DNA from: Stappia sp. MMSF_3263
GTDB lineage: Bacteria > Pseudomonadota > Alphaproteobacteria > Rhizobiales > Stappiaceae
DNA: 64,000 nt
NCBI RefSeq assembly: GCF_030733745.1
Contig: NZ_JASHIK010000014.1
Location: 62,001-126,000, forward strand
Direction: 5' to 3'
Part shown: positions 5,769 through 46,070 of the stretch, one piece after another
Layout of the letters: each line of letters opens with the position of its first letter
Numbering within the stretch: the stretch's first letter is position 1
Notes under the pieces: model-generated
The model's database searches: none
Told to the model about the DNA's origin: nothing
Seen by the model: only the letters and a program-made list of their open reading frames with translations
Program-made: the position numbers and the translations under genes

Positions 5769-7301
5769 ATGCAGGAAATTTTGCAGGAACTGGAAAACCG
5801 CCGCGCCGCCGCGCGCCTGGCCGGCGGCACCCGCCGCATCGAGGCGCAGCATGCCAAAGGCAAGCTGACGGCGCGCGAGCGCATCGATGTCTTCCTCGAT
5901 GAAGGTTCGTTCGAGGAATACGACATGTTCGTTACCCACCGCTGCGTGGATTTCGGCATGCAGGACACCTCGATGCCGGGCGACGGCGTCATCACCGGCT
6001 GGGGCACGGTGAACGGGCGCATGGTCTATGTGTTCTCGCAGGACTTCACCGTGTTCGGCGGCTCGCTGTCCGAGACCCATGCCCAGAAGATCTGCAAGAT
6101 CATGGACATGGCGATGAAGAACGGCGCCCCCGTGATCGGCCTCAACGACAGCGGCGGCGCCCGCATCCAGGAAGGCGTCGCCTCGCTGGCCGGCTATGCC
6201 GACGTCTTCCAGCGCAACATCATGGCCTCGGGCGTGGTGCCGCAGATCTCGATGATCATGGGCCCCTGCGCGGGCGGCGCGGTCTATTCGCCGGCGATGA
6301 CCGACTTCATCTTCATGGTCCGCGACACGTCCTACATGTTCGTCACCGGACCGGACGTGGTGAAGACGGTGACCAACGAGGTGGTGACGGCCGAGGAACT
6401 TGGTGGCGCCAAGACCCATACCGGCAAGTCCTCGGTCGCGGACGGGGCCTTCGACAATGACGTGGAAGCGCTGATCGCGCTGCGCCGCTTCATCGACTTC
6501 CTGCCGGCCAACAACCGCGAGAAGCCCCCCGTTCGGCCGTTCTTCGACGACCCGGCCCGCGTCGACAACTCGCTCGACACGCTGATCCCGGACAATCCGA
6601 ACAAGCCCTACGACATGAAGGAGCTGATCGTGAAGGTCGCCGACGAGGGCGACTTCTTCGAGATCCAGGAAGCCTATGCGGGCAACATCGTCACCGGCTT
6701 CATCCGCATCGAGGGACAGACGGTGGGCGTCGTCGCCAACCAGCCGATGGTGCTGGCGGGCGTGCTCGACATCAATTCCTCGCGCAAGGCCGCGCGCTTC
6801 GTGCGCTTCTGCGACTGTTTCAACATCCCGATCCTGACCTTCGTCGACGTTCCCGGCTTCCTGCCCGGCACGACGCAGGAATATGGCGGCGTCATCAAGC
6901 ACGGCGCCAAGCTGCTCTTCGCCTATGGCGAGGCAACCGTGCCCAAGGTCACCGTCATCACCCGCAAGGCCTATGGCGGCGCCTATGACGTGATGTCGTC
7001 GAAGCACATTCGCGGCGACATCAACTATGCCTGGCCAACGGCCGAGATCGCGGTGATGGGCGCCAAGGGCGCGACCGAGATTCTCTACCGCTCGGAGTTG
7101 GGCGACCCGGAAAAGATCGCGGCCCGCACGAAGGAATACGAGGACCGCTTCGCCAACCCGTTCGTGGCGGCGGAAAAGGGCTTCATCGATGACGTGATCA
7201 TGCCGCATTCGACCCGGCGGCGGGTCGCGCGGGCACTGGCGACGCTGCGCAACAAGCAGCTCTCCAACCCCTGGAAGAAGCACGACAACATTCCGCTGTG
7301 A
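5769..7301 (+). CDS. pccB: Propionyl-CoA carboxylase beta subunit (carboxyltransferase)
   Basis: This 510-residue protein is the normal length for PccB. It transfers carboxyl from carboxybiotin to propionyl-CoA, giving (S)-methylmalonyl-CoA in the cytoplasm. Crotonase-fold carboxyltransferase motifs are present: [11 protein letters not shown] and [16 protein letters not shown] in the N-terminal half, and [10 protein letters not shown] and [15 protein letters not shown] in the C-terminal half. The very high similarity to the PCC type, with the KHDNIPL ending, favours PCC over acetyl- or methylcrotonyl-CoA carboxylases. It lies 42 bp after bioY and 20 bp before pccA, so the three are probably one transcript under the ScfR-like regulator. 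Confidence 0.95.
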
Positions 7302-7321
7302 TGCCGGACAGGACAGAGAAA

Positions 7322-9352
7322 ATGATCAAGAAAATCCTGATCGCCAATCGCGGCGAGATCGCCTGCCGGGTCATCAAGACCGCGAAGAAGATGGGCATCA
7401 AGACGGTCGCGGTCTATTCCGACGCCGACCGCGATGCGCTGCATGTGAAGATGGCCGACGAGGCGATCCATATCGGTCCGCCGCCAGCGAACCAGTCCTA
7501 TATCGTCATCGACAGGATCATGGACGCGATCCGCGCCTCCGGCGCCGATGCGGTGCATCCGGGCTACGGCTTCCTCTCCGAGCGCGCCGAGTTCGCCGAG
7601 CGGCTGGCCAAGGAGGGCGTCGCCTTCATCGGGCCGCCGGCCTCGGCGATCGAGGCGATGGGCGACAAGATCACCTCGAAGAAGCTGGCCGCCGAGGCCG
7701 GCGTTTCCACCGTGCCGGGCTATATGGGCCTGATCGCCGATGCCGACGAGGCGGTGAAGATCGCGGCGGAAGTCGGCTACCCGGTGATGATCAAGGCCTC
7801 CGCCGGGGGCGGCGGCAAGGGCATGCGCATCGCGTGGAACGAGGCGGAGACGCGCGAGGGTTTCCAGTCCTCCAAGAACGAGGCGGCCAATTCCTTCGGC
7901 GACGACCGCATCTTCATCGAGAAGTTCGTCACCCAGCCGCGCCATATCGAGATCCAGGTGCTGGCCGACAGCCACGGCAACGCGATCTATCTCGGCGAGC
8001 GCGAATGCTCGATCCAGCGCCGCAACCAGAAGGTCATCGAGGAGGCACCCTCGCCCTTCCTCGACGAGGCGACCCGCAAGGCCATGGGCGAGCAGGCGGT
8101 GGCGCTGTCCAAGGCCGTCAACTACGCCTCCGCCGGCACGGTCGAGTTCATCGTCGACGGGGAGCGCAACTTCTACTTCCTGGAAATGAACACCCGCCTG
8201 CAGGTGGAGCATCCGGTGACCGAGCTGATCACCGGCATCGACCTCGTCGAGCAGATGATCCGCGTCGCCGCCGGCGAGACGCTGTCGATCACGCAGGACG
8301 ATGTGAAGCTGAACGGCTGGGCTATGGAAAGCCGGCTCTATGCCGAGGACCCCTATCGCAACTTCCTGCCCTCGATCGGCCGCCTCACCCGCTACCGGCC
8401 GCCGCAGGAGGGGACGAATGCCGAGGGGATCGTGGTGCGCAACGACACCGGCGTCTTCGAGGGCGGCGAGATCTCGATGTTCTACGACCCGATGATCGCC
8501 AAGCTGTGCACCTGGGCGCCGAAGCGCATCGAGGCCATCGACGCGATGGCCGACGCGCTCGACCGGTTCGAGGTGGAAGGCATCGGCCACAATCTGCCGT
8601 TCCTTTCCGCCGTGATGGACCACCCGCGCTTCCGCAGCGGCGCCATCACCACCGCCTTCATCGCCGAGGAATATCCGGACGGCTTTGCCGGCGTTGCGCC
8701 GGACGGCGCGGATCTGGAAGCGCTTGTCGCGGTGGCGGCCGCCTGCACCCATTTCTCCGAGACACGTGCGACCCATATATCGGGGGCGATGGACAATCAC
8801 CGCCGTGTCGTCAGCCCGGACTGGACCGTGCTTGTCGACAAGGCCGAATATCCGGTGAGCGTCGAGCGCCGGGACGAGGACAGCTATGTCGTCGGCCCGC
8901 GCGAAGCGGAGGGAGGCCTCGCGCTTTCCGGCCGGCTTGAAGTGTCGCTCGGCGGCTGGCGGCCGGGCGCGGCCTTGATCGAGGCAACCGTCGACGGGCG
9001 GCCTGTGGCGATCAAGATCGAGCGCACCAACAAGGGCTACCGCATGCGCCGCCGGGGCGCCGACGTGACGCTGTCCTGCCTGACCCCGCGCCAGGCGATG
9101 GCCGCGCGGCTGATGCCGGAGAAGATCCCGGCCGACACCTCGAAGATGCTGCTCTGCCCGATGCCGGGCCTGGTCGTGTCCATCGCGGTGGAGGAAGGCC
9201 AGCAGGTGGAAGCGGGCCAGACGCTCGCCACCGTCGAGGCGATGAAGATGGAGAACGTGCTGAAGGCCGAGCGCAAGGGCGTGGTCAGGACCATCGCCGC
9301 CAAGCCGGGCGACAGCCTCGCCGTCGACGAGATCATCATGGAATTCGAATAG
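7322..9352 (+). CDS. pccA: Propionyl-CoA carboxylase alpha subunit (biotin carboxylase + BCCP)
   Basis: This 676-residue protein starts [17 protein letters not shown], the standard N-terminus of biotin carboxylases. An ATG 24 bp upstream is less likely. Order of domains: biotin carboxylase N-domain, ATP-grasp with the glycine-rich [13 protein letters not shown] loop, the C-domain with [16 protein letters not shown], a PCC-specific linker, and a C-terminal biotinyl domain. The biotin lysine is K642 in AMKMEN. It carboxylates biotin with ATP and bicarbonate and partners PccB. Its neighbour BioY would import the biotin. The next gene, mutase, follows after 11 bp. Confidence 0.95.
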
Positions 9353-26191: not shown

Positions 26192-26584
26192 GTGGTCACC
26201 CTGTCGTCAAGAAACCGGTACATGTCGGCATCCGCAACACAGCGGGAGCGACGCAGGACGCCACGGGCGCAAGGGTCCATACCCGTCATGGTGGTGACCA
26301 TGCGCGGCCCGATGCCCGCGAAGCTGAAGGATCTGAGCCTCACGGGCTGTCGCATCCTGTGCTCCGACCTGCCGAAATTCGCACTCAGCGTGCGTATCTC
26401 GGTCACCGCCTACGGGCTGGAGCTGCGGGCGGAGCAGCGCTGGCGGCGCGGCGAGGAGAGCGGCTGGCGGTTCATCTACAACGATCCCGAGCAGGAGCGG
26501 CTCAAGGACATCATCTTCAACGAGATTTCCAAACGCCAGAACGCCGAGACGATCGAACAGCCCTATCGGCCCGGAGGCCGATAG
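26192..26584 (+). CDS. Small PilZ-domain-like protein
   Basis: The product (120-130 residues) carries the two c-di-GMP-binding motifs of PilZ domains: an Arg-rich RERRRTPR (RxxxR type) near the N-terminus and DLSLTG (D/NxSxxG) about 35 residues later. A beta-rich body with a Trp-rich strand follows. It is a single-domain effector, probably binding c-di-GMP and acting on motility or exopolysaccharide targets elsewhere. The start is uncertain: AGGAGGT at 26187-26193 is too close to the GTG at 26192 and best spaced for a rare CTG at 26201. The ATG at 26222 has no clear ribosome site. Confidence 0.7.
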   Translation: MVTLSSRNRYMSASATQRERRRTPRAQGSIPVMVVTMRGPMPAKLKDLSLTGCRILCSDLPKFALSVRISVTAYGLELRAEQRWRRGEESGWRFIYNDPEQERLKDIIFNEISKRQNAETIEQPYRPGGR

Positions 26585-34860: not shown

Positions 34861-36369
34861 CTACCGTTCGGAGATCGGTCCCTCACCCGCCGGCGCGTCG
34901 CCGCGCGCCCCCGCCGGCGCCCTGCCCTGTCCGTTCCAGGACTGCAGCCGCCGGTAAAGGGTCGAGGGGCTGACCTTCAGCGCCTGGGCGGCACGCGGGA
35001 TGTTGCCGCCGCAGAGCGAGATCGCACTCTCGATCGCCTCGCGGATCACCGTGTCGAGGGGCCGGATGCGCAGGCCCGCCTCGCTGCGCATGGCCGCGTC
35101 GGTGCCGGCCTGCGCATCGGCCGGCATTCCCGCCACTGCAATGCCCGCAGAAGCTGCCGCCGGAACCGGCGACGGCGACGGGATATCGGCCTGGCCCTGC
35201 GGTTGCGCCGGCAGCATTCCCGCCTCCATCAGCTCCGCGTCGTTGAGCACCACAGCGCGGCGGATGGCGTTCTGGAGCTGACGGATGTTGCCTGGCCACG
35301 CGCAGGCTGCCAGCGCGCGCTCGCAATCGGTCGTGAAATCGCGGAACCGCTTGCCGTCCTCCTCGGCGAACTGACGCAGGAAATGGCGGGCGATCAGCAC
35401 CGCGTCGCCGCCGCGCGCGCGCAGCGGCGGCAATTCGATCGGCATTACATGCAGCCGGTAATAGAGATCCTCGCGGAAGCGGCCGGCGGCGACCTCCGCT
35501 TCCGGATCTCGATTGGTGGCGCACACGATGCGCACGTCGACGGGCCGCATGTGATCCTCGCCAACCCGGCGCACCGCCTTTTCCTGCAGGACGCGCAGCA
35601 TCCGGGTCTGGAGGTCGGGGTCCATCTCGCAGACCTCGTCGAGAAACAGCGTGCCGCCATCGGCGGACAGCATCGCGCCCTTGCGCTCGCTCACAGCGCC
35701 GGTGAAGGCGCCACGGGCGTGACCGAAGATCTCGCTTTCCTGCATGCCGCGCGGGATCGCGGCGCAGTTGATGGAAACGAGCGGCCCCGCCGCCCGCTTG
35801 CTCAACGCATGGATCGCATGGGCGCAAAGCTCCTTGCCCGTGCCGCTCTCGCCGGAGATGAAGACGGTGGCGCTGGTGGGAGCGGCGCTGCAGATCAGGC
35901 GATAGACGGCCTGCATCGCCGGCGAACGGCCAATCATGCCCTCGAAGCCGTCCGCGCCGATCTCGCCGCCCAGTTCCTCCAGCCGGCTGGCCAGTTGCAG
36001 CCGGTCGAGCGCGTTGCGCACCGTCACCCGCAGCCGGTCGGCGGTGAAGGGCTTCATGACAAAGTCGAAAGCCCCCTCGCGCATCGCCTCGACCGCGATG
36101 TTGACGGATGCCTTGCCGGTGATCAGCACGACCTCGCAGGGCGTACCCCGCGCCTTGATTCGCTTGAGCAGGTCGAGACCGTTGCCGTCCGGCAGGTTCA
36201 CATCGAGCACCACCACGCCAGGCGCATGCGCCGCCACGTGCTCCATCGCCTCCGCGCCGGTCGCGACAACATGGACCTCGAGGCCCTGCGGTACGAGATA
36301 GGCCCTGTAGGTCTCGGCAAGCGCGCGCGCGTCCTCGACCAGCAGGACACTGGGCTTATTCCCGGTCAT
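34861..36369 (-). CDS. LuxO-like sigma-54-dependent response regulator
   Basis: This 502-residue regulator has a receiver (4-120; Asp56 in VVVLDVNLPDG). The AAA+ sigma-54 activator domain (140-375) has Walker A GESGTGKE at 173-180 and GAFTGA at 220-225. A Pro/Ala-rich linker follows, then a C-terminal Fis helix-turn-helix (about 450-490, GGNIPRAAQALKVSPSTLYRRL). The receiver start LVEDARALAETYRAYL resembles LuxO of the Vibrio quorum circuit more than NtrC or DctD. No kinase or phosphotransfer protein is next to it. The ATG at 36369 has a poorly spaced AAGGGG, and a TTG at 36381 is an alternative. It precedes the SARP/YcaO locus and could affect it. Confidence 0.85.
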   Translation of the reverse strand: MTGNKPSVLLVEDARALAETYRAYLVPQGLEVHVVATGAEAMEHVAAHAPGVVVLDVNLPDGNGLDLLKRIKARGTPCEVVLITGKASVNIAVEAMREGAFDFVMKPFTADRLRVTVRNALDRLQLASRLEELGGEIGADGFEGMIGRSPAMQAVYRLICSAAPTSATVFISGESGTGKELCAHAIHALSKRAAGPLVSINCAAIPRGMQESEIFGHARGAFTGAVSERKGAMLSADGGTLFLDEVCEMDPDLQTRMLRVLQEKAVRRVGEDHMRPVDVRIVCATNRDPEAEVAAGRFREDLYYRLHVMPIELPPLRARGGDAVLIARHFLRQFAEEDGKRFRDFTTDCERALAACAWPGNIRQLQNAIRRAVVLNDAELMEAGMLPAQPQGQADIPSPSPVPAAASAGIAVAGMPADAQAGTDAAMRSEAGLRIRPLDTVIREAIESAISLCGGNIPRAAQALKVSPSTLYRRLQSWNGQGRAPAGARGDAPAGEGPISER

Positions 36370-36721
36370 GCGTGCCAGCAACCACCCCTTCTGGCGCGCC
36401 GCTCAGGTCTGGCCTTCGCCAGCACCGGGGCAACGCGATCACGGCCGGTGGCAGGTCTCCAGCACCCGGCCCTGGCGGCTCCGACATCCAGCGGTCAGCA
36501 ACGGTGCGCAGGCCTTTCCACACGCACCCCGACATCGCAGCCGGACGCCAGATTACGGCATCCGGTGCCGGCGTAAAACCGGAAGATGCGCCCCTCCTCC
36601 CCAACCTTCGGACAGGCGATGCGGCCAGGCAAAAACTTCCGTTGAGTTATTTTCAAGGATTCCGGCGTCCGAAAGCCCTGATCTAGTACTTTCCCGCAGC
36701 GCCCCGCGGCTCCCACCTGCT

Positions 36722-36805
36722 CCGGATATCGTGAATTGTATTTAGGTTGTATTTTCGAATTTATACAAATATCCGGTTGACGCTTTGCCCGGTCAATCTT
36801 CTAAT
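36722..36805 (+). promoter_or_regulatory. Promoter with SARP-type direct repeats upstream of the small RiPP-like gene
   Basis: Two heptamers TTGTATT lie at 36736-36742 and 36747-36753, on an exact 11-bp pitch. Eight bp after the second is the -10-like TATACA (36762-36767). The inverted pair CCGGATAT (36722) and ATATCCGG (36769) brackets them. Established work on SARP activators places their 11-bp-pitch heptamers 8 bp before the -10. A second, sigma-70-like pair follows: TTGACG (36777) and TCTAAT (36800) with a 17-bp spacer. Confidence 0.6.
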
Positions 36806-36973
36806 TCACATGCTGGGAATCTTTTCGTTCACAGCTTTTGGGCGCCAAACACTGCCACTCGCCGTCGAGGCCGGTGGGTGGCGGGCAGTGCGGATTACAT
36901 GACGGGACTCCGGCGAGAGACCGGAGGATGTTCATGCGGCGTGCCTTCTTCTCAAACCGTTACGGGGCAAAAT

Positions 36974-37342
36974 ATGACTGACGAACTGGCAAAGATCGAC
37001 ATCCACGATCACAAGGCACTGGGACAGCTTGTGGCCGACTACGCCACGGGCGCGAAACCCTGGCCAGAGACGCTTGCCGCACTGAAGAGCGAACTGGCGG
37101 GAATTGCCACCGTCCCAGATCACCTCAAGGCGCTGCAGGTGATCCAGCCTTCGGAAGAGGTCCTGCTGCTGAGGTTGCCGCCGCGTCGCATGATCGAGCA
37201 GTCGCTGGAAAACTACTCGACCGGCGACGGGGCCACCGGTCCCTATCCGCTGCCCGGCTTCTACGAGGATGGCGATACGCTTTCCAACAGCGACTTTCTT
37301 CTCCACAGGGTTGCCGACTATACGATCGCCGTGTGCACCTGA
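36974..37342 (+). CDS. Small protein resembling a RiPP precursor (NHLP-like leader)
   Basis: This 122-residue acidic protein (MTDELAKIDIHDHK...) is without signal peptide. Residues 32-70 run WPETLAALKSELAGI...LKALQVIQPSEEVLLLRLPP. This has the shape of the nitrile-hydratase-like leader family: helix, then a V-x-V strand, acidic turn and hydrophobic strand ending LPP. The last 50 residues (from RRMIEQ) are different in character: Gly/Ser/Thr/Tyr-rich with one Cys at position 121, and ending IAVCT. It faces a SARP regulator and a YcaO enzyme, hence the precursor hypothesis. No Gly-Gly cleavage site is seen. Alternatively it is an unrelated small regulatory protein. The ATG is preceded by GGGGC. 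Confidence 0.5.
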   Translation: MTDELAKIDIHDHKALGQLVADYATGAKPWPETLAALKSELAGIATVPDHLKALQVIQPSEEVLLLRLPPRRMIEQSLENYSTGDGATGPYPLPGFYEDGDTLSNSDFLLHRVADYTIAVCT

Positions 37343-37354
37343 AACGACGGCTTG

Positions 37355-37380
37355 CCGGCGGGCCCTTGGCCTGCCGGTCT
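37355..37380. terminator. Bidirectional terminator between convergent genes
   Basis: CCGGCGGGCC pairs with GGCCTGCCGG (10 bp, one G-T pair) across a CTT loop, followed by TCTTTC on the plus strand. It fills the 39-bp gap between the small RiPP-like gene and the SARP gene, which end facing each other. Confidence 0.75.
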
Positions 37381-37381
37381 T

Positions 37382-39490
37382 TCAGTGCGGCGTGTCCGGC
37401 GGTGGCGCCAGGTCATCCGGAAGGGGGATGCCGGCCAGGGAAAGCCCGTGACGCACGTCGTTCCAGGTGCGTTGCGAACTGATCGGAAAGCAGTTTCCGA
37501 TCCAGCGGCCGATCTGCGCGTCATCCGGCTTGTCCGGCAGGATCCAGCGCTCGACGATGCGCTGCTTGAGATGTTCGGCCTGGGCCCGCGCCTCGTCGAC
37601 CTCGCCAGTCAGGGCCAGCGCGGTCACATACCAGGCCTCCACCCCCAGATAGCCGTCGCTCAGATAGCGGAACGCGGAAATCGACGCCCGGTGGTCGCCG
37701 CAAAGGCACATGATCCCGACGAAATAGCTCCAGTGCAGCGGCGAGGTCAGCAGGCCGCTGTCGCGGTGGCGATAGGCAATCCCGGCCGCCTCCTCCCGGT
37801 AGCCGTAATAGGCCAGTCCGTGCGCCGCCGACAGGGCCGTCCAGGGATCGTTGGAATTCAGCTCGAGCGCTTGCCGGTGCTGCGCCTCCGCCTGCTCGAA
37901 GCGCCGTTGCAGGGCCAGCGTCCAGGCGGAGCACAGATAGGCGCGCGAATCGAACGGATCCAGCGTCAGCGCGCTGCGCGCCAGCCCGGCCGAGCGCTCC
38001 AGCATTTCGGGGGTCTGCACCTGGCCGGGAAAGACGATGTGGCGCGAGTTGATGATCTGGGCCAGGCTTGAATAGGCCGGGCCGAAACGCGGGTTGTCCT
38101 CGATCAGCCCCGACAGGATCTCCTCAGCGCGGTGCGTGTTCTCGATCTTCCATGTGTAGTGCAGCCGCTGGCCCATCAGCAGGCGGTCATACTGGTCGAG
38201 CGAGGCATCGGGCATCCGCGACATGTTGGCGAGGCGCTCGGCGGAAATGTTGACGTTCATCGCCAGCGCGATCTCCGCCACCAGGAGCGACTGGCGCGAG
38301 AACAGTTCGGAGATGCCGACATCCGAATTGCGCCCCCAGACATAGGCGTTGGTGCGCGAGTTCTTCACCGTCACCGAGTAGGACACGGCGTGCTGCGAGC
38401 GCATGGCACTGATCGAGACGCGGTAGATCGGCGCCGCCGACCGCGACAGTTCCTCGGTCATGTCGTCGGCCACGGACCATTCCCGGAACCGGACGAGGCG
38501 CGAGATCAGGTCGTGGCGGAACACCTTGGCAAGGCGCACGTCGTCGTCGGCCTCGGTGATCTGCAGGATCTGGTCGACCACGATCACCGGGTTCACGGGC
38601 TGGACGGCCGGCTCCGCCTTCGCCTCGCCACGCGCATCGCCTGCGGCCCGCGCCTTTGCCGCCGGGTCGGCCATCCCGTCGGCAACACGGGTCTGCTCGC
38701 GTTTCAGCCACTCGGAGAAATTGCCGAGCTTGATGTCGACGATGAGCGACTGGGTCTCGCTCGAGGGCTGGGTGTCGAACTCCTCCTCCAGAATGTTCCA
38801 CAGGTCCTCGTAGGCCCTGAGCGCGGCGGTGAAATCCCCGCTCACCGCCCGCGAGGTCATGAAGGCACGGCAGGCGGGTTCGTGCGTCGGGTCGAGGTTG
38901 AGCAACGCCAGCGCCGCTTCCTCCATCGACTGCCAGTCGCCGGCGCCAAGCCGAATCATCGGCTCGAGAACGCCGCGCAGCTGGTCGTGGAGCTGTTGCC
39001 GGCGCACCCGAAGCCAGGCGGTGAACGGCTCGGCCAGCATCTCGCCGCCCTCGAACAGGCGCTCGGACAGTCGCTTCTCGCTCAGCAAGCGCCGGGCGAC
39101 GGTGGCGCCGGGCGCCAGCAACGCCTCCACATCCGTTTCCACGCGGGAAAGGTCGAGGCTGATATTGATCTTGTCGCTGTCCAGCCCGTCGAAGCCGGCA
39201 GCCTCCAGGTTGCGGCGCAAGATCAACAAGGTCTGGCGCAGGGAGGAGCGGGCGTGATGTTCGGAACTGTCTTCCCAGAAGAGGTTCGCCGCCATCTCGC
39301 GCGACAGGCGGCCATCGCCCGTCAGGCACAGCCGGGCAAGCAGGCCTTCCGCCTTGCGCGAACGGAACGAAACCGGCCGGTCGCCGACCTCGAAGCGGGG
39401 GACTCCGAGAATCGAGGCGTGCAGGCGCGCCCGCGAGGCGGGGCCGGCCGGCCCGGAGCCGAACCTGTCCTGGTTCCCGATATCGTCCAC
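37382..39490 (-). CDS. SARP-type (BTAD) transcriptional activator with TPR region
   Basis: This 702-residue protein has an OmpR-like winged helix at about residues 27-98 (FRSRKAEGLLARLCL, ANLFWEDSSEHHARSSLRQTL). A bacterial transcriptional activator domain follows at about 118-245 (YEDLWNILEEEFDTQPSSETQSL). A central TolB/adenylate-cyclase-associated-like region (300-420) and TPR-like helices (440-650) complete it. SARPs of this layout govern secondary-metabolite genes in actinomycetes and occur in Proteobacteria. Its start is the GTG at 39490, with a weak GGGGC box. It lies between the RiPP-like gene and YcaO, and heptamer repeats suited to it sit before the former. Confidence 0.82.
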   Translation of the reverse strand: MDDIGNQDRFGSGPAGPASRARLHASILGVPRFEVGDRPVSFRSRKAEGLLARLCLTGDGRLSREMAANLFWEDSSEHHARSSLRQTLLILRRNLEAAGFDGLDSDKINISLDLSRVETDVEALLAPGATVARRLLSEKRLSERLFEGGEMLAEPFTAWLRVRRQQLHDQLRGVLEPMIRLGAGDWQSMEEAALALLNLDPTHEPACRAFMTSRAVSGDFTAALRAYEDLWNILEEEFDTQPSSETQSLIVDIKLGNFSEWLKREQTRVADGMADPAAKARAAGDARGEAKAEPAVQPVNPVIVVDQILQITEADDDVRLAKVFRHDLISRLVRFREWSVADDMTEELSRSAAPIYRVSISAMRSQHAVSYSVTVKNSRTNAYVWGRNSDVGISELFSRQSLLVAEIALAMNVNISAERLANMSRMPDASLDQYDRLLMGQRLHYTWKIENTHRAEEILSGLIEDNPRFGPAYSSLAQIINSRHIVFPGQVQTPEMLERSAGLARSALTLDPFDSRAYLCSAWTLALQRRFEQAEAQHRQALELNSNDPWTALSAAHGLAYYGYREEAAGIAYRHRDSGLLTSPLHWSYFVGIMCLCGDHRASISAFRYLSDGYLGVEAWYVTALALTGEVDEARAQAEHLKQRIVERWILPDKPDDAQIGRWIGNCFPISSQRTWNDVRHGLSLAGIPLPDDLAPPPDTPH

Positions 39491-39584
39491 TTTGCCCCAA
39501 CCCCCTTGCGCATCAAGACCTTAGCAGGTCAGTCCCTCTTGCCCCAGAAGAAAAGATTTGCGTATCAAAGGGTTTGTACAAAAA

Positions 39585-40925
39585 TCAGTAGAGAGGCGGG
39601 AGTGCCCTCCCGTCCCGGACCGTATCATGCGCGGCGCACTGGCGCGCGAGCCTTGCTGTGATGATACGACCCGGATCGGGTTGCAACCCCGGAACAAATA
39701 CCCGTGTCACGTTTACTCCCAGATTGGCACGGGTGAGATCAATTAACAGTACGGTGAACCCCGCATGCAGCAGGGCTGCGAGCGGGTCCGCACCTGCGTC
39801 TGCCCGGTCTCCCGCGTGCACCGCGTCCACTGTTTCGGCGGCGATACCGGCCGGTTGCAGGATCGGCCAGTCATGCCGCACCTGTTCGCGCCTTGCCAGA
39901 TGGATCCGGTCCATGTCGTTGAGCGCGGCCTCCCCGGCCTCCGCGCGCTTGGCATCGACCAGCCTGTCGGCAAGTTCGATCTGCATCAGTTCCTGCAAGG
40001 CCGCGGACAGGGCTCTTGCCCGCGTGGCCCGCGCCGCGAAGCCGTAGGCAAAGCCGCCACCGGAGGCATCCACCGAGAGGGCCGCGGCCACGGGAATGCC
40101 GATGTCGGTGGTCAGGTCCAGAAACCATGTTCGTCGCTGCGTGCGGCCACGGCGCCAGTCCGCCAGGCATCCCGAGATCGCGGCTTCGGCCAGCGCCTCC
40201 TGCGCAAAGCCGCGCGCGCGCCGGCCACCGCGCCACCACAGCGCGACCGCATCCCGCTCGATCCACTCGAACAACGCATGCCGGCGCGCCGACGCCGCGT
40301 CGCGGCCGGCGGCAACGCCCAGCCCGGGCGCGAAAGGGACGGCGCTCGCCGGACCGCTGTCGCGACGTCGCCAGACAAGGCTTGCGGGCAGCCTCACATC
40401 GATGTCGCGGGCAAGGTCGCGGGCAACCGCTTCCCCATCCGGCGCCGGATCCGCCCCGTCGGCCGGCGCCTCCCCGACCAGTCCGGCGAGCAGTGCCGCC
40501 GGCAACGCGGGTTCCGCGCCGTTCGCGCTCCGGGCCCGTGTCTCGTCCTCGCATTCGAACTGGCTGGCGAATTCGGCCGCTTCCGCCACGCAGGCTCGGA
40601 ACGCGGCCAGCCGCGTTTCGCCCATGCCGGAAACGGACCCGCGCGCCGGCGCCAGCGCGCCAAAGGCGGACGCGGTCGCCTGGGCGCCAAAACAGTAAAG
40701 ACCAGGCGCATCCGGCACCGGCAGCTCGAACAGCCGGTCGAGCCGGGCGGCGACGGACAACAGCGCAGCAAGATCGGGATCGCCCACGGGCACTCCGCCC
40801 GCCCCCTCGCCCAGATAGGCAAGGAAGGCCCGCACCCGCTCGTCGCAGTCTGCCGACAGCCCGCCGGAGGCAACCGCATCGCCTGCCAGTTGCAAGGTCC
40901 GTCGCGTCTCCTCGCGCATCCGCAT
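39585..40925 (-). CDS. Stand-alone YcaO-family enzyme
   Basis: This 446-residue protein has YcaO features in order: SGMGETRLAAFRACVAEAAE (99-118); GRDAASARRHALFEWIERDA (207-225), which holds the ExxER type ATP/Mg motif; LTTDIGIPVAAALS (271-284); ALQELMQIE (309-317), matching QExxQ; and VNVTRVFVPGLQP (405-417). YcaO enzymes use ATP to activate backbone amides, giving azolines, thioamides or amidines, or act on ribosomal S12 when paired with RimO. The end reads LPPLY rather than the PxPxP tail of azoline-forming members. No E1-like, TfuA or dehydrogenase partner is visible. It lies upstream of the SARP gene on the same strand with a 94-bp gap. Confidence 0.8.
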   Translation of the reverse strand: MRMREETRRTLQLAGDAVASGGLSADCDERVRAFLAYLGEGAGGVPVGDPDLAALLSVAARLDRLFELPVPDAPGLYCFGAQATASAFGALAPARGSVSGMGETRLAAFRACVAEAAEFASQFECEDETRARSANGAEPALPAALLAGLVGEAPADGADPAPDGEAVARDLARDIDVRLPASLVWRRRDSGPASAVPFAPGLGVAAGRDAASARRHALFEWIERDAVALWWRGGRRARGFAQEALAEAAISGCLADWRRGRTQRRTWFLDLTTDIGIPVAAALSVDASGGGFAYGFAARATRARALSAALQELMQIELADRLVDAKRAEAGEAALNDMDRIHLARREQVRHDWPILQPAGIAAETVDAVHAGDRADAGADPLAALLHAGFTVLLIDLTRANLGVNVTRVFVPGLQPDPGRIITARLARQCAAHDTVRDGRALPPLY

Positions 40926-41371
40926 CCTTCCCCCGAGCGGCTCCCCGCCCGTTCCCCGTTCCGCCGCGACACTGCCGCGCCCCCGGCAATAACGCCCTGC
41001 TCAAAAGATGAGCGGAAAAATCACGGACAGATAACGCTAGCTGGTGTTGTATCGGAAAATCAAATGGATGGGGGGACACGGCAGGCTTGCCAGGTACGAG
41101 ATTGCGTGCCGGGAGCATGACGGAGCCGGTTTGACCTCCCCCAGTTGACGCGCGGATGTCCGACGGACGATCCGTACCGGTTTCCCGGCGTGAATGCGGT
41201 TCACGCCGCGCGCACGGGGTGCGCGGCAGGCGTTTCAGGAGTGCCCTCGCGGCACCTTTTCGAACGGCATCGCCGTATCGAACCGGAGGTTCGCCCCTCC
41301 GGACAGGTGATGCGAGACACATGCGGACAATCCAGGCTTGTTTTCAGGCTTCGGATCGCACGTGACCCAAC

Positions 41372-41773: not shown

Positions 41774-43138
41774 TCAGGCCTTCTTGCGTCGTTCCTGCCC
41801 GCAGGTGCGGATCTCGGCGAAGAAGTCCCGCACCTGTTCGGAAATCTGCGAGGACTGGCTGCGCAACGACCCCGACACCTGGAGGAAGTCCTGGGCTGCG
41901 TGCTCGGTCTTCTCGATGGCGTCGTTGACGCCGCCGACATTGCGGGTCAGCGTCAGCGTGCCTTGCGCCGCGTGCTGGACGTTCATGGAAATCTCGCGCG
42001 TCGCCGCACCCTGCTCCTCGACCGCAGCCGCGATGGCAGCCGTCAGCGTGTCGATCTCGCCGACCGTCGAGGCGATGGAGCCGATCGTGTCCACCGCGCG
42101 GGTGGTCGCCCCCTGGACCTCGGCAATCTGCTTGGCGATGTCCTCTGTCGCCTTCGACGTCTGGCTGGCGAGTTGCTTCACCTCCTGAGCGACGATCGCG
42201 AAGCCGCGGCCGGCATCGCCCGCGCGGGCCGCCTCGATGGTCGCGTTCAGCGCCAGGAGGTTGGTCTGCTCGGCAATCGCCTGGATCAGGCCGATCACGT
42301 CGCCAATCTTCTGGGCGTTGGTGGACAGCTGGCCGACTTCCCTCGAAACGCTTTCGGTGACCACGTTGGCCCGGCGCGCCACGTCCGAGGCGCCGGTGAT
42401 CTGCCGGCCGATCTCCTCGATCGAGGAGGACAGCTCCTCCGCCGCCGAGGCAACCGTCTGGACGCTGACCGAGGTCTGCTCCGATGCCGCCGAGGCGGAG
42501 ACCGCCTCCTGGGAGGCGGCGCTTGCCACCGACGACAGGGTGCCGGCCTGCGACTGCATCTTGTCGGCCGTCGTGTCGACCGTCTGCAACGACACCTCGA
42601 CCTTCGTCTTGAAGCGATCGATGGCATCGCTCAGGCCACGCGTTTGCGCCTCCTGGGCTTCCATCAGGATCTGCTGGTAGGTGGAGATGGCAAAGTCGAG
42701 ATCCAGCAGCACCGCCTTGTTCAGCGCCTGGACGGCCGCCGTCGCCTTGGCCGGCGACAGCCGATAGCGGCGAATGACAACCTCGACCAACTCGTTGAGG
42801 ACGTACTGATAGCCGGCGATATACCAGCGCGGCTCCAGGCCGATCCGGCTGTGGGCGCGGCCGATGCGGTCGATGCTGCTGACATACTCATCGTCGAACT
42901 TGGCGGCGAACAGGCGCTGCCAGTGCTTTTTCTGCGCCGATTCCAGAGATGCCTGACGATCGCCGAGCAGGGCCTTCAGCGTCGGCTGGTGGGCCAGATG
43001 CACGTAGAACCGCGACAGGATGCGATCCAGCTCAGGCTCAACGATCTTCCACAGCGCGCGCAACTGCACCCGGGCTTCGTCCTCGATCCTGGCAAACGCC
43101 AGCCGTTCCATCGTGTGTGCTGAATCCATGCCCGACAT
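41774..43138 (-). CDS. Globin-coupled chemoreceptor (HemAT type)
   Basis: This 454-residue cytoplasmic methyl-accepting protein has an N-terminal sensor-globin domain (about 10-165) with proximal heme His96 in [21 protein letters not shown] methyl-accepting signalling coiled coil follows, with the conserved hairpin tip around [23 protein letters not shown]. No transmembrane helix is present, consistent with HemAT-like oxygen sensors. It should bind O2 through heme and steer CheA. The ATG at 43138 has GAGG 9 nt upstream. ATGs at 43147 and 43129 are alternatives. It is transcribed alone. Confidence 0.92.
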
Positions 43139-43450
43139 CGGTGCCATCCTCGTTACATGACGCTGCGTCGACGCTGGATGGAGTCGGTTTCCAAAGTACT
43201 AATGAAAATAATTCTTTTAATAAAGGCATGATTCTACAGTTTAGCAAAGCCAAATATTAGAGAGCCGATATAATAAGTAATTTATACTAGACTGGATCGC
43301 AGGGCAGGAGATCGCGCCTGCGGATTTTTGCCCCTGCGCCTGCCCTCGCCTGGCAGGAGCGCCTGAGCCTCAAAAGAAATGATTTTTTGCAGGGAGACAT
43401 CATCGGCCGTGCGCAGGCGCCGACATGCCAGGCCGGCCTGATCGGCGGGC
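43139..43450. other. AT-rich promoter region of the chemoreceptor
   Basis: About 310 bp between the chemoreceptor start and tRNA-Gln. The 43190-43290 part is strongly AT-rich, with several TATAAT-like words, and probably holds the chemoreceptor promoter. I see no gene in it. Confidence 0.45.
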
Positions 43451-43878: not shown

Positions 43879-44330
43879 AACAAATTCAGATACTTAGATG
43901 AGTTGCGCTTCCCTGTCACAGGGCTAGCCCGACAGTTATCCCGACAAATACGCCCTGAAACGCATATCCCCAGCCCCTACCCGTCCGCCCTCGGGCCGCG
44001 CGCCACGATCCGTAGCGCGTCGTCGGCAAGGGGCCACTGCAACCGCAAGGCCCCCTCAGCCGGTGCGGCGATTACTCGACGACCTGGGGCGTCACGGCAC
44101 CATGACGCCGGAGGAAGAAGCCACGCAGCTCGCGCGCATCAACGACGGCGCATGGAGCAAAGTCGGGTTCGGAACGAGCTCCGTGTCTCTAAGTGACCGA
44201 CAGCAATGCAGCTTGAACATCCGCCACTCGCATTTTGGCTGCATTGTCACTCAATGCAATTTATTATAGATTAAAGATAATTGTCGTGGTATTTTTTCAA
44301 ATATTTATATATATAATTGAGGAGGTTGCG
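43879..44330. other. Junction region after tRNA-Pro
   Basis: 450 bp from the tRNA-Pro 3' end to the DUF4403-like gene. It contains the gene remnant above and then a drop to AT-rich sequence from about 44200, which supplies the promoter of the next gene. No integrase gene and no clear copy of the tRNA 3' end is seen. Confidence 0.4.
43977..44100 (-). pseudogene. 3'-end gene remnant (paralogous to 46096-46167)
   Basis: On the minus strand a frame ends ...LQWPLADDALRIVARGPRADG-stop at 43977. Nothing upstream gives a start or a full domain. The same coding signature, LRIVARG[A/P]R[A/E]DG, recurs at 46096-46167 on the same strand. Both look like C-terminal leftovers of one gene family. An SOS-response-associated peptidase is only a guess. 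The DNA core shared is 19 bp (43999-44017 and 46136-46154, one mismatch). Confidence 0.4.
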
Positions 44331-46070
44331 ATGAGCAGGTTTTCTTCAATATGCTTACTGGCCACTCTCTTTTTGACTGGATGCGACAACTGGGACGCCA
44401 AAGCGCCACCCGAGACGCAGGCCAACGAACCAAGTATTTCAATTCCGGCCTCCTATGCGCATGTACCGCTCTCCATCAAGACATCGATGATCGAAGAGGC
44501 TGTGCTTCAACGCGCATCTGTCGGCCCCATCTTCAACGGGCGAACAGATGAAATCAGCGCTGATATCGGCGCCGAAGAAGACATTCCGGCAGTGATCGAA
44601 AAAGTGATTGTCACACCGTACAAAGCCGCCGGTTGCGCAGTTAAACAGGTGACATCCAGTTGTCCGAAATCAATTGAAAAGCGCATCAAGGAGCGTTGTT
44701 TCAGGAACTTCAGGATTTGGGACTGTTTCCGGACAATCACGGAAACCGTCTATGTTCCATGTGTCCGCGATGTCCAGCAGTGTTGGCCCGAGATCAAGGA
44801 AGTAATCGAGTCACACGTAGTCGTTCCCGCCACGATCAAGGACTGCCTGCTACCAACGTCCGTCTGGTTTAACTATGCAGGTTGGCTTCGTCAGTTCGAC
44901 GTCGAGGCTCATGGCCGGGACCTGACTGTGTCCGGCGTCGTCGATACGACCGTATCTGTCGACATCAAGCAGGGCGTGCTTAGTGCTTCAATGAAGGTGA
45001 AGGGAGCGCTGAAGTGTGACATCAAACTCGGACTTGATATGACTGTCAGAACAACAGTGCAGGGAGATGCTTCAGTCGACATCGAGATCACACGGTTTAA
45101 TCTGGATACGAAGCATCTTTGCATCCCCGGCGCGGTTCAACTCACAGATTTGACTCTGTTGAATACAAACTTGTTTCTCCACAAGGAACTCTTGAAGGAA
45201 GTATTAAAGAAGCCATTTCTAAAAATTTTGAACCAGCAACTAGACAAGCAAATTGCTGACGACCTGAAATTTGCAGACCGTCTCCAGAAGATTGCCAATA
45301 GCATCAGCAAACCCATCGATCTGAAGAACGATGCATGGCTTCGCATCAATCCAGAGAAATTGTTGGCGAGTCAGTTCTCAGGTACCGGTTCCGGCCAATC
45401 CAACGTCCTTACTCTGGATGTGGCCGTTGAAGCCAGCCCGCGGATTGTGATTGGCTCACGGCCACCAGACGCACCCACGGGAGTGCCTCTGGCCTTCGCG
45501 GTACAGGACGATTTGCCAAAGGGGGTCGTTTTGTCGGCAAGCGCGAGTGTGCCACTAGCCCCAGTACGGGAAAAGCTGGCGAAGGAACTGTCCTCCTTTG
45601 TCGAAACTGAGTACCCGGATCAGCCTTATATGATCGCCGATGTTGGCCTCTACCAGAGCTCCGACAAATTCGTCATCTCCCTCTCCGTGGCCGAGCGTGA
45701 CGGAGGTGAAGTTGTCGGTACGCTATATGCTTGGGCAACTCCCCATCTAGATACCGATACCCGAACGATAGGGTTACGCGATGTTGGTTTCGATGTGGAT
45801 TCAGAGCGCGTGATCGCAAAGCTCGCCAACTGGCTGCTTTCTTCCCGTATCGAAAGCAAGATCGAAGAGAAGGCCGTCTGGGCTTACGGTGGGGAGCTAA
45901 AGCGACTGCAGGAGGACCTGGTCAGTTTCGAGGATGACAGTTCTTCCGGTATCTTCAGAGGAGCCGTCGACGAGATTGAGCCGATGTCGATCTGGATTGG
46001 CGGGGGCGCCATTAACGTGCTCGCTAAGGCAACAGGAAAAGGCTCGTTCGAGTTCAGACCGAATCTGTGA
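44331..46070 (+). CDS. DUF4403-like lipoprotein
   Basis: This 579-residue precursor has a lipoprotein signal (MSRFSSICLLATLFLTGC, Cys18). The mature protein is beta-rich with repeats of alternating hydrophobic residues, starting with SISIPASYAHVPLS. This suits the lipid-binding-barrel-like DUF4403 family, though the match is by pattern only. A Cys-rich insertion (about residues 95-165, eight Cys, several in pairs) is unusual and may form disulfides in the periplasm. GAGGAGG precedes the ATG by 5 nt. GC and codon use are clearly lower than in the flanking genes. With its place next to tRNA-Pro and an IS fragment, this suggests horizontal gain. Confidence 0.65.
   Translation: MSRFSSICLLATLFLTGCDNWDAKAPPETQANEPSISIPASYAHVPLSIKTSMIEEAVLQRASVGPIFNGRTDEISADIGAEEDIPAVIEKVIVTPYKAAGCAVKQVTSSCPKSIEKRIKERCFRNFRIWDCFRTITETVYVPCVRDVQQCWPEIKEVIESHVVVPATIKDCLLPTSVWFNYAGWLRQFDVEAHGRDLTVSGVVDTTVSVDIKQGVLSASMKVKGALKCDIKLGLDMTVRTTVQGDASVDIEITRFNLDTKHLCIPGAVQLTDLTLLNTNLFLHKELLKEVLKKPFLKILNQQLDKQIADDLKFADRLQKIANSISKPIDLKNDAWLRINPEKLLASQFSGTGSGQSNVLTLDVAVEASPRIVIGSRPPDAPTGVPLAFAVQDDLPKGVVLSASASVPLAPVREKLAKELSSFVETEYPDQPYMIADVGLYQSSDKFVISLSVAERDGGEVVGTLYAWATPHLDTDTRTIGLRDVGFDVDSERVIAKLANWLLSSRIESKIEEKAVWAYGGELKRLQEDLVSFEDDSSSGIFRGAVDEIEPMSIWIGGGAINVLAKATGKGSFEFRPNL

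Follow-up and report, generated by a model that had tools for sequence, protein, structure and literature searches.

Gene content of the locus

The analysed window is a 64,000-nucleotide stretch of the Stappia sp. MMSF_3263 genome (assembly of 5.0 Mb in 50 contigs). Of nine relatives of the locus that carry a name, seven are Stappia strains. The first-pass annotation had grouped four genes into one candidate natural-product unit, and all four reading frames exist at the positions it gave. The genes and predicted features are as follows:

34861..36381, minus strand: sigma-54 response regulator, LuxO-like (best NCBIfam model LuxO)
36777..36805, plus strand: promoter predicted for the small gene, sigma-70-like (TTGACG, 17 bp, TCTAAT)
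36974..37342, plus strand: small protein, 122 aa, putative substrate whose N-terminal part is folded and whose C-terminal tail is fixed
37307..37339, plus strand: codons of the tail RVADYTIAVCT (residues 112–122), with Cys121 penultimate
37382..39490, minus strand: SARP regulator with BTAD domain and TPR repeats (Pfam), 702 aa
39585..40925, minus strand: stand-alone YcaO (Pfam PF02624), 446 aa
41017..41062, minus strand: conserved 46-bp block upstream of YcaO (6 Stappia loci)
41020..41037, plus strand: predicted SARP-type operator ATCACGG-ACAG-ATAACGC, some 95 bp ahead of the start codon of YcaO

YcaO and SARP are codirectional on the minus strand with YcaO upstream, while the small gene and the SARP gene are convergent and 39 bp apart. 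The SARP was recognized by its BTAD domain (PF03704, 47.4 bits, cut-off 22.1) along with TPR repeats, and the YcaO by PF02624 (128.8 bits, cut-off 25.7). The small protein matches no Pfam or NCBIfam family; since homologues with 48–72% identity occur in 12 relatives (the G077 match left out), it is no chance frame.

The LuxO-like regulator scored 551 bits against the NCBIfam LuxO model, below the model cut-off of 800. Among 17 Stappia-type loci its gene was absent from five that carry the small gene and YcaO and present in five that lack both, and its HMM gave no match in loci L090–L108. Of the proposed four-gene unit, three genes, those for the 122-aa protein, the BTAD/TPR SARP and YcaO, form one unit, with the LuxO-like gene outside it.

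A genome search found no YcaO other than that of the window. This would suit a housekeeping enzyme of the RimO-linked ribosomal S12 type, a possibility raised alongside the original proposal; however, its NCBIfam matches (E ≤ 1) included no S12-accessory model, its PDB matches (E ≤ 0.01) included no chain of E. coli YcaO, and the gene is missing from five of 14 Stappia genomes and tied to the small protein. The best NCBIfam model was instead the azoline-forming SagD (103.7 bits, under that model's own cut-off of 219.25), and LynD, TruD and MusD were the only PDB matches at E ≤ 0.01. Orthology to the S12 factor is thus extremely improbable. Residues E115, E118, E220, E223, R224, E312 and Q315, which we take to be of the ATP-site type, were conserved in 28–30 of 29–30 sequences. 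On a midpoint-rooted tree the YcaOs of the module separated from other Stappiaceae YcaOs, with those of L105 and L106 the most distant on the module side.

The kinship with SagD, LynD, TruD and MusD, the kind of YcaO shared with LAP/TOMM systems, speaks for a classical azole antibiotic pathway, with the genes for its E1-like and dehydrogenase partners located elsewhere. Neighbours were scanned with Pfam over all called genes between 23.8 and 50.9 kb except 26288–26584 (98 aa), plus the ORF at 44235–46070, together 17 of the 42 called genes of the window and one ORF. As had been claimed at the outset, no E1/ThiF-like protein, TfuA or McbC-type dehydrogenase was present among these neighbours. 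No further family common to 22 relatives' neighbourhoods emerged from the 40 largest clusters, and the small protein offers a single conserved Cys in a fixed tail rather than a variable, heterocycle-rich core. Unlike LAP/TOMM systems, the module thus has no E1-like partner or FMN dehydrogenase among these scanned neighbours, and we regard a classical azole pathway as quite unlikely.

Co-occurrence and gene order in relatives

In the family sample (87 genomes, own included), a YcaO of some kind was found in 59 genomes and a close one (E ≤ 1.7e-37) in 14. The small protein occurred in the same 14, 13 identified by search and one, a diverged copy in G042, by clustering. Its profile matched 25 of 397 genomes in the order sample, 3 of 385 in the class sample (own included) and 6 of 398 in the phylum sample, all six of the latter already found in the earlier surveys.

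Surroundings were examined in 34 genomes (the window, L046–L058, L067 and L090–L108). The SARP gene adjoined the small gene in 32 of them, L105 and L106 being the exceptions, and the two genes were convergent in 32/32. YcaO was likewise located within the locus in 32 genomes. In L067 the locus itself lacks YcaO, and the genome has just a distant one; in L093 the local YcaO had decayed and an intact one, 47% identical to that of L094, lay elsewhere. L105 and L106 carried distant YcaOs 4–6 kb away. Among the 40 largest clusters, no further family of at least 90 aa was common to more than three of the 22 non-Stappia-type loci, frames overlapping the module aside.

Within 14 Stappia genomes, SARP was present in all, whereas the small gene and YcaO were both present in nine and both missing from five. 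The five genomes without the pair fell in two places of an antiporter-gene tree, where one joining node had a support of 0.78; if these are losses, the pair was therefore lost at least twice. Because they are present or absent jointly, and because SARP and the peroxidase described below can each stay without them, the small protein and YcaO behave as a pair. The first-pass annotation had named independent scatter of the two genes as a sign against a system; their shared 14 of 87 genomes, joint absence and conserved order point the other way.

The usual fourth gene in relatives encodes an animal-type haem peroxidase and normally sits immediately before the small gene, on the same strand. A peroxidase match was obtained in 28 of the 34 genomes, including a remnant in L048, a gene in two frames in L101 and a divergent gene about 7 kb from the small gene in L058. 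PF03098 scored above its cut-off in L055 and L057 and below it in L051. Residues H130, D131, R228 and H330, which presumably include the distal and proximal His, were conserved in 25 of 25 sequences scoring over 200 bits. The peroxidase is absent from the window locus and from five close relatives, and its presence in Stappia follows another pattern than that of the small gene and YcaO: in L179 it survives though both of these are missing. The peroxidase is dispensable. The composition first suggested for the locus is thus kept for SARP, YcaO and the small protein, while the LuxO-like regulator drops out and the fourth place is usually taken by a haem peroxidase.

Candidate operator of the SARP

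The 46-bp block upstream of YcaO is nearly identical in six relatives and contains two heptads 11 bp apart, with a 4-bp spacer. The available text of PMC5930380 describes the classical SARP site as a heptamer and a four-nucleotide spacer, 11 bp in all, and the candidate operator has this geometry of heptameric direct repeats. The pattern TMACG-N6-TMACG has a single match in the 64-kb window (28.3 bits, versus 11.7 for the next best site). It occurred in 17 of 17 Stappia-type loci, the set in which the motif was found, ahead of YcaO or, in loci without YcaO, ahead of SARP.

Zones upstream of peroxidase or YcaO in 22 further loci, 21.5 kb in total, contained 25 sites (15 loci), compared with 14 sites in the other 368 kb; 16 other spacings gave 0–3 sites each in the same zones. 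Six of these 22 loci had been inspected during the motif search, and 10 of the other 16 have a zone site. As controls, 30 nitrile-hydratase loci (105 kb) yielded no site, and 15 loci with the other Stappiaceae YcaO type (55 kb) yielded one; a SARP fragment lies at the border of L023, one of these 15. A stricter form of the operator had six matches in the own genome, three of them CtrA-like, and the reversed stricter pattern had none there and 0–3 in 13 other genomes. The small gene of the window's clade has no SARP site; a putative sigma-70-like promoter is conserved instead, with both hexamers identical in 6/6 aligned peroxidase-less Stappia loci. The earlier suggestion that SARP controls YcaO thus gains evidence in the form of a predicted operator with SARP geometry, located upstream of YcaO and recurring in relatives.

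Compared with Streptomyces SARPs such as PimR, as described in the available part of PMC5930380, the regulator shares the BTAD domain, heptamers, 4-bp spacer and 11-bp period, but it is alphaproteobacterial, its heptad is ATCACGC/ATAACGC and its predicted target is a YcaO/peroxidase unit.

A site upstream of YcaO-SARP itself raises the possibility of an autoregulatory circuit, in which the modified tail would be a peptide signal matured by YcaO (and the peroxidase) and read by the TPR part of SARP. SARP is indeed the best-conserved long protein of the unit (72–79% identity in close relatives versus 54–55% for YcaO), and the tail is kept across the order. Five Stappia genomes nevertheless retain SARP and the operator in the absence of the small gene and YcaO, and no protease or exporter family was common to the neighbourhoods among the 40 largest clusters. 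A signalling circuit therefore appears rather unlikely. Because those five genomes keep SARP without the pair, the regulator has some other role or signal.

The small-protein tail and its proposed modification

The 28 aligned small proteins all end in R-[VIL]-x-D-Y-x-[IVF]-x-x-C-x. Only eight residues are invariant (G17, P31, L68, Y97, R112, D115, Y116 and C121, P0001 numbering), whereas the final residue varies among T, S, R, A, G, K, V and M. A fixed penultimate Cys fits what is expected of a modification site and of a docking tail alike. L096 carries two small genes in tandem.

A relation to NHLP leaders was considered. None of the 28 small proteins matched the leader model TIGR03793 at E ≤ 10. 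Profile comparison with HHalign gave 66% probability over residues 44–84, with a score of 30.3; 20 shuffled controls scored at most 12.9, the reversed control 16.1, and the SARP, YcaO and peroxidase profiles 9.5–18.4. Nitrile hydratase alpha reached a score of 19.5 (2%). Comparison with the local 90-aa NHLP-like family gave 0.2%, and with the joint profile 1.8%. The sequence link to NHLP leaders is therefore weak and partly contradicted.

This 90-aa family belongs to a second YcaO type, adjoining all 16 other Stappiaceae YcaO loci examined (L016–L031). Its members match TIGR03793 in 15 of 17 aligned cases, by E-value only (best E 2.6e-5), and end in ...ELGKAALGNCFYEDLPE or variants, with an invariant Cys. 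At L180 and L181 the family occurs together with a distant SARP carrying the operator. A YcaO paired with a small protein that bears a fixed, Cys-containing tail looks like a theme of the Stappiaceae.

Taken as a whole, the locus is best explained as a SARP-regulated, YcaO-dependent module that would modify one fixed peptide tail, a reading to which we assign a probability of roughly one half; its chemistry is what we infer from sequence. It is supported by the gene set and order, the invariant tail, the operators upstream of YcaO-SARP and mostly also of peroxidase-small, and joint presence and absence. The tandem small genes in L096, the kept YcaO and peroxidase residues and the second YcaO type add to this support. 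Counted against it are the invariant tail, which would suit docking no less than a substrate role, the weak NHLP link, the exceptions L067, L093, L105 and L106, and the dispensable peroxidase. The SARP genes without small gene and YcaO in five Stappia genomes and the missing SARP site at the clade's small gene also weigh against it, as does the fact that neither an RRE partner nor an E1 was found.

The tail could alternatively serve docking alone, with the small protein as an adaptor or subunit that binds YcaO, the peroxidase or SARP while the real substrate is encoded elsewhere in the genome. An invariant tail lacking core diversity would be expected of such a protein, as would a small gene directly adjoining the peroxidase gene in most relatives and a stand-alone YcaO whose scanned neighbours include no E1-like protein. 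On the other hand, the small gene and YcaO are jointly absent from five of 14 Stappia genomes while SARP stays, and the peroxidase stays in one of these genomes; the tandem genes of L096 and the Cys-tailed proteins of the second YcaO type suit a substrate better. An adaptor role is hence possible but doubtful.

Under the preferred reading of a modified tail, SARP would bind the paired heptads and activate YcaO-SARP and, in most relatives, peroxidase-small too. The folded N-terminal part of the small protein would be the docking domain, and YcaO with ATP would activate an amide of the tail backbone, most probably at the penultimate Cys, which would close onto the preceding carbonyl to give a thiazoline (−18 Da). 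The peroxidase, where kept, may oxidise the product, converting the thiazoline to a thiazole or acting on the invariant Tyr; in the window's clade, where it is missing, the unoxidised form would be expected as the end product. Thioamidation, Tyr chemistry or a pure docking role may apply instead. Because the tail hardly varies, the product would be one conserved molecule or protein-bound group rather than a diversified antibiotic. The small protein may be the precursor of a peptide, and a natural product may result. Only tentatively do we go further and propose a new class of YcaO system, in which the stand-alone YcaO, usually with the peroxidase, builds one modification, conserved order-wide, on the C-terminus of the small folded protein (a thiazoline or thiazole at the penultimate Cys, maybe coupled to the invariant Tyr). 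That protein would then carry a cofactor or signal derived from the peptide, in a circuit autoregulated by SARP.

Known systems resemble the module in part. Bottromycin-type YcaOs are stand-alone enzymes without an E1-like partner and have a Cys close to where the modified stretch ends; the module is likened to them by description, and its gene neighbourhood differs. TfuA-YcaO thioamidation likewise involves YcaO action on a peptide backbone amide, but no TfuA lies among the module's scanned neighbours. According to the available text of PMC12455567, the YcaO MprC is known to act on structured NHLPs. The MprE/MprC system described there resembles the module in the action of YcaO (as proposed here) on a small protein whose N-terminal part is folded, in a Cys in the C-terminal part and in the weak leader-profile similarity. 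NHLP cores are hypervariable according to the available part of PMC4603692, in contrast to the invariant tail here, and the module neighbourhood has no flavin dehydrogenase but SARP and a haem peroxidase. The main text of the NHLP/TOMM surveys PMC2887384 and PMC4603692, in the form available, mentions neither peroxidase nor Stappia or Labrenzia. Searches of the literature, with coverage of few subscription journals, returned no paper combining YcaO with 'heme peroxidase' and no genuine paper combining YcaO with BTAD.

YcaO enzymes have been described mainly in antibiotic pathways, and few other targets are recognized, such as ribosomal S12 and McrA. The module occurs in marine and soil alphaproteobacteria. 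An alphaproteobacterial SARP now gains a concrete candidate operator and target. If the tail is the substrate, the module would extend the uses of YcaO chemistry, and a haem peroxidase may take the place of a flavin dehydrogenase as oxidant.

Genes and repeats around the module in the window

Upstream of the small gene, the repeat TTGTATTT occurs twice, 11 bp apart (window 36736-36757); this pair was not conserved among relatives. Beyond the YcaO gene lie:

41774-43147, adjoining YcaO, chemotaxis transducer whose sensor domain is of the protoglobin type
44235-46070, DUF4403 protein, within a lower-GC stretch

Several Stappia loci likewise have such a transducer close to the module. The GC content at 44001-46000 was 0.525 versus about 0.63-0.71 in the surroundings.

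The second YcaO type

Within the family, YcaOs of a second type were recorded with a ~90-aa protein resembling NHLPs in loci L016-L031, L180 and L181. This protein, bearing an invariant Cys tail, adjoins the YcaO in all 16 loci L016-L031, and L181 is a further locus pairing the second YcaO type with a ~90-aa NHLP-like, Cys-tailed protein.

Other states of the module

Stappia genomes L175-L178 retain only the SARP and its predicted operator, the SARP being located at:

6750-8927
6864-9020
7025-9202
7045-9234

Loci L105 and L106 carry the peroxidase-small protein pair without SARP, a distant YcaO 4-6 kb from this pair, and a common gene whose product starts with MQPRFPRPVI. Their arrangement is a divergent form of the module.
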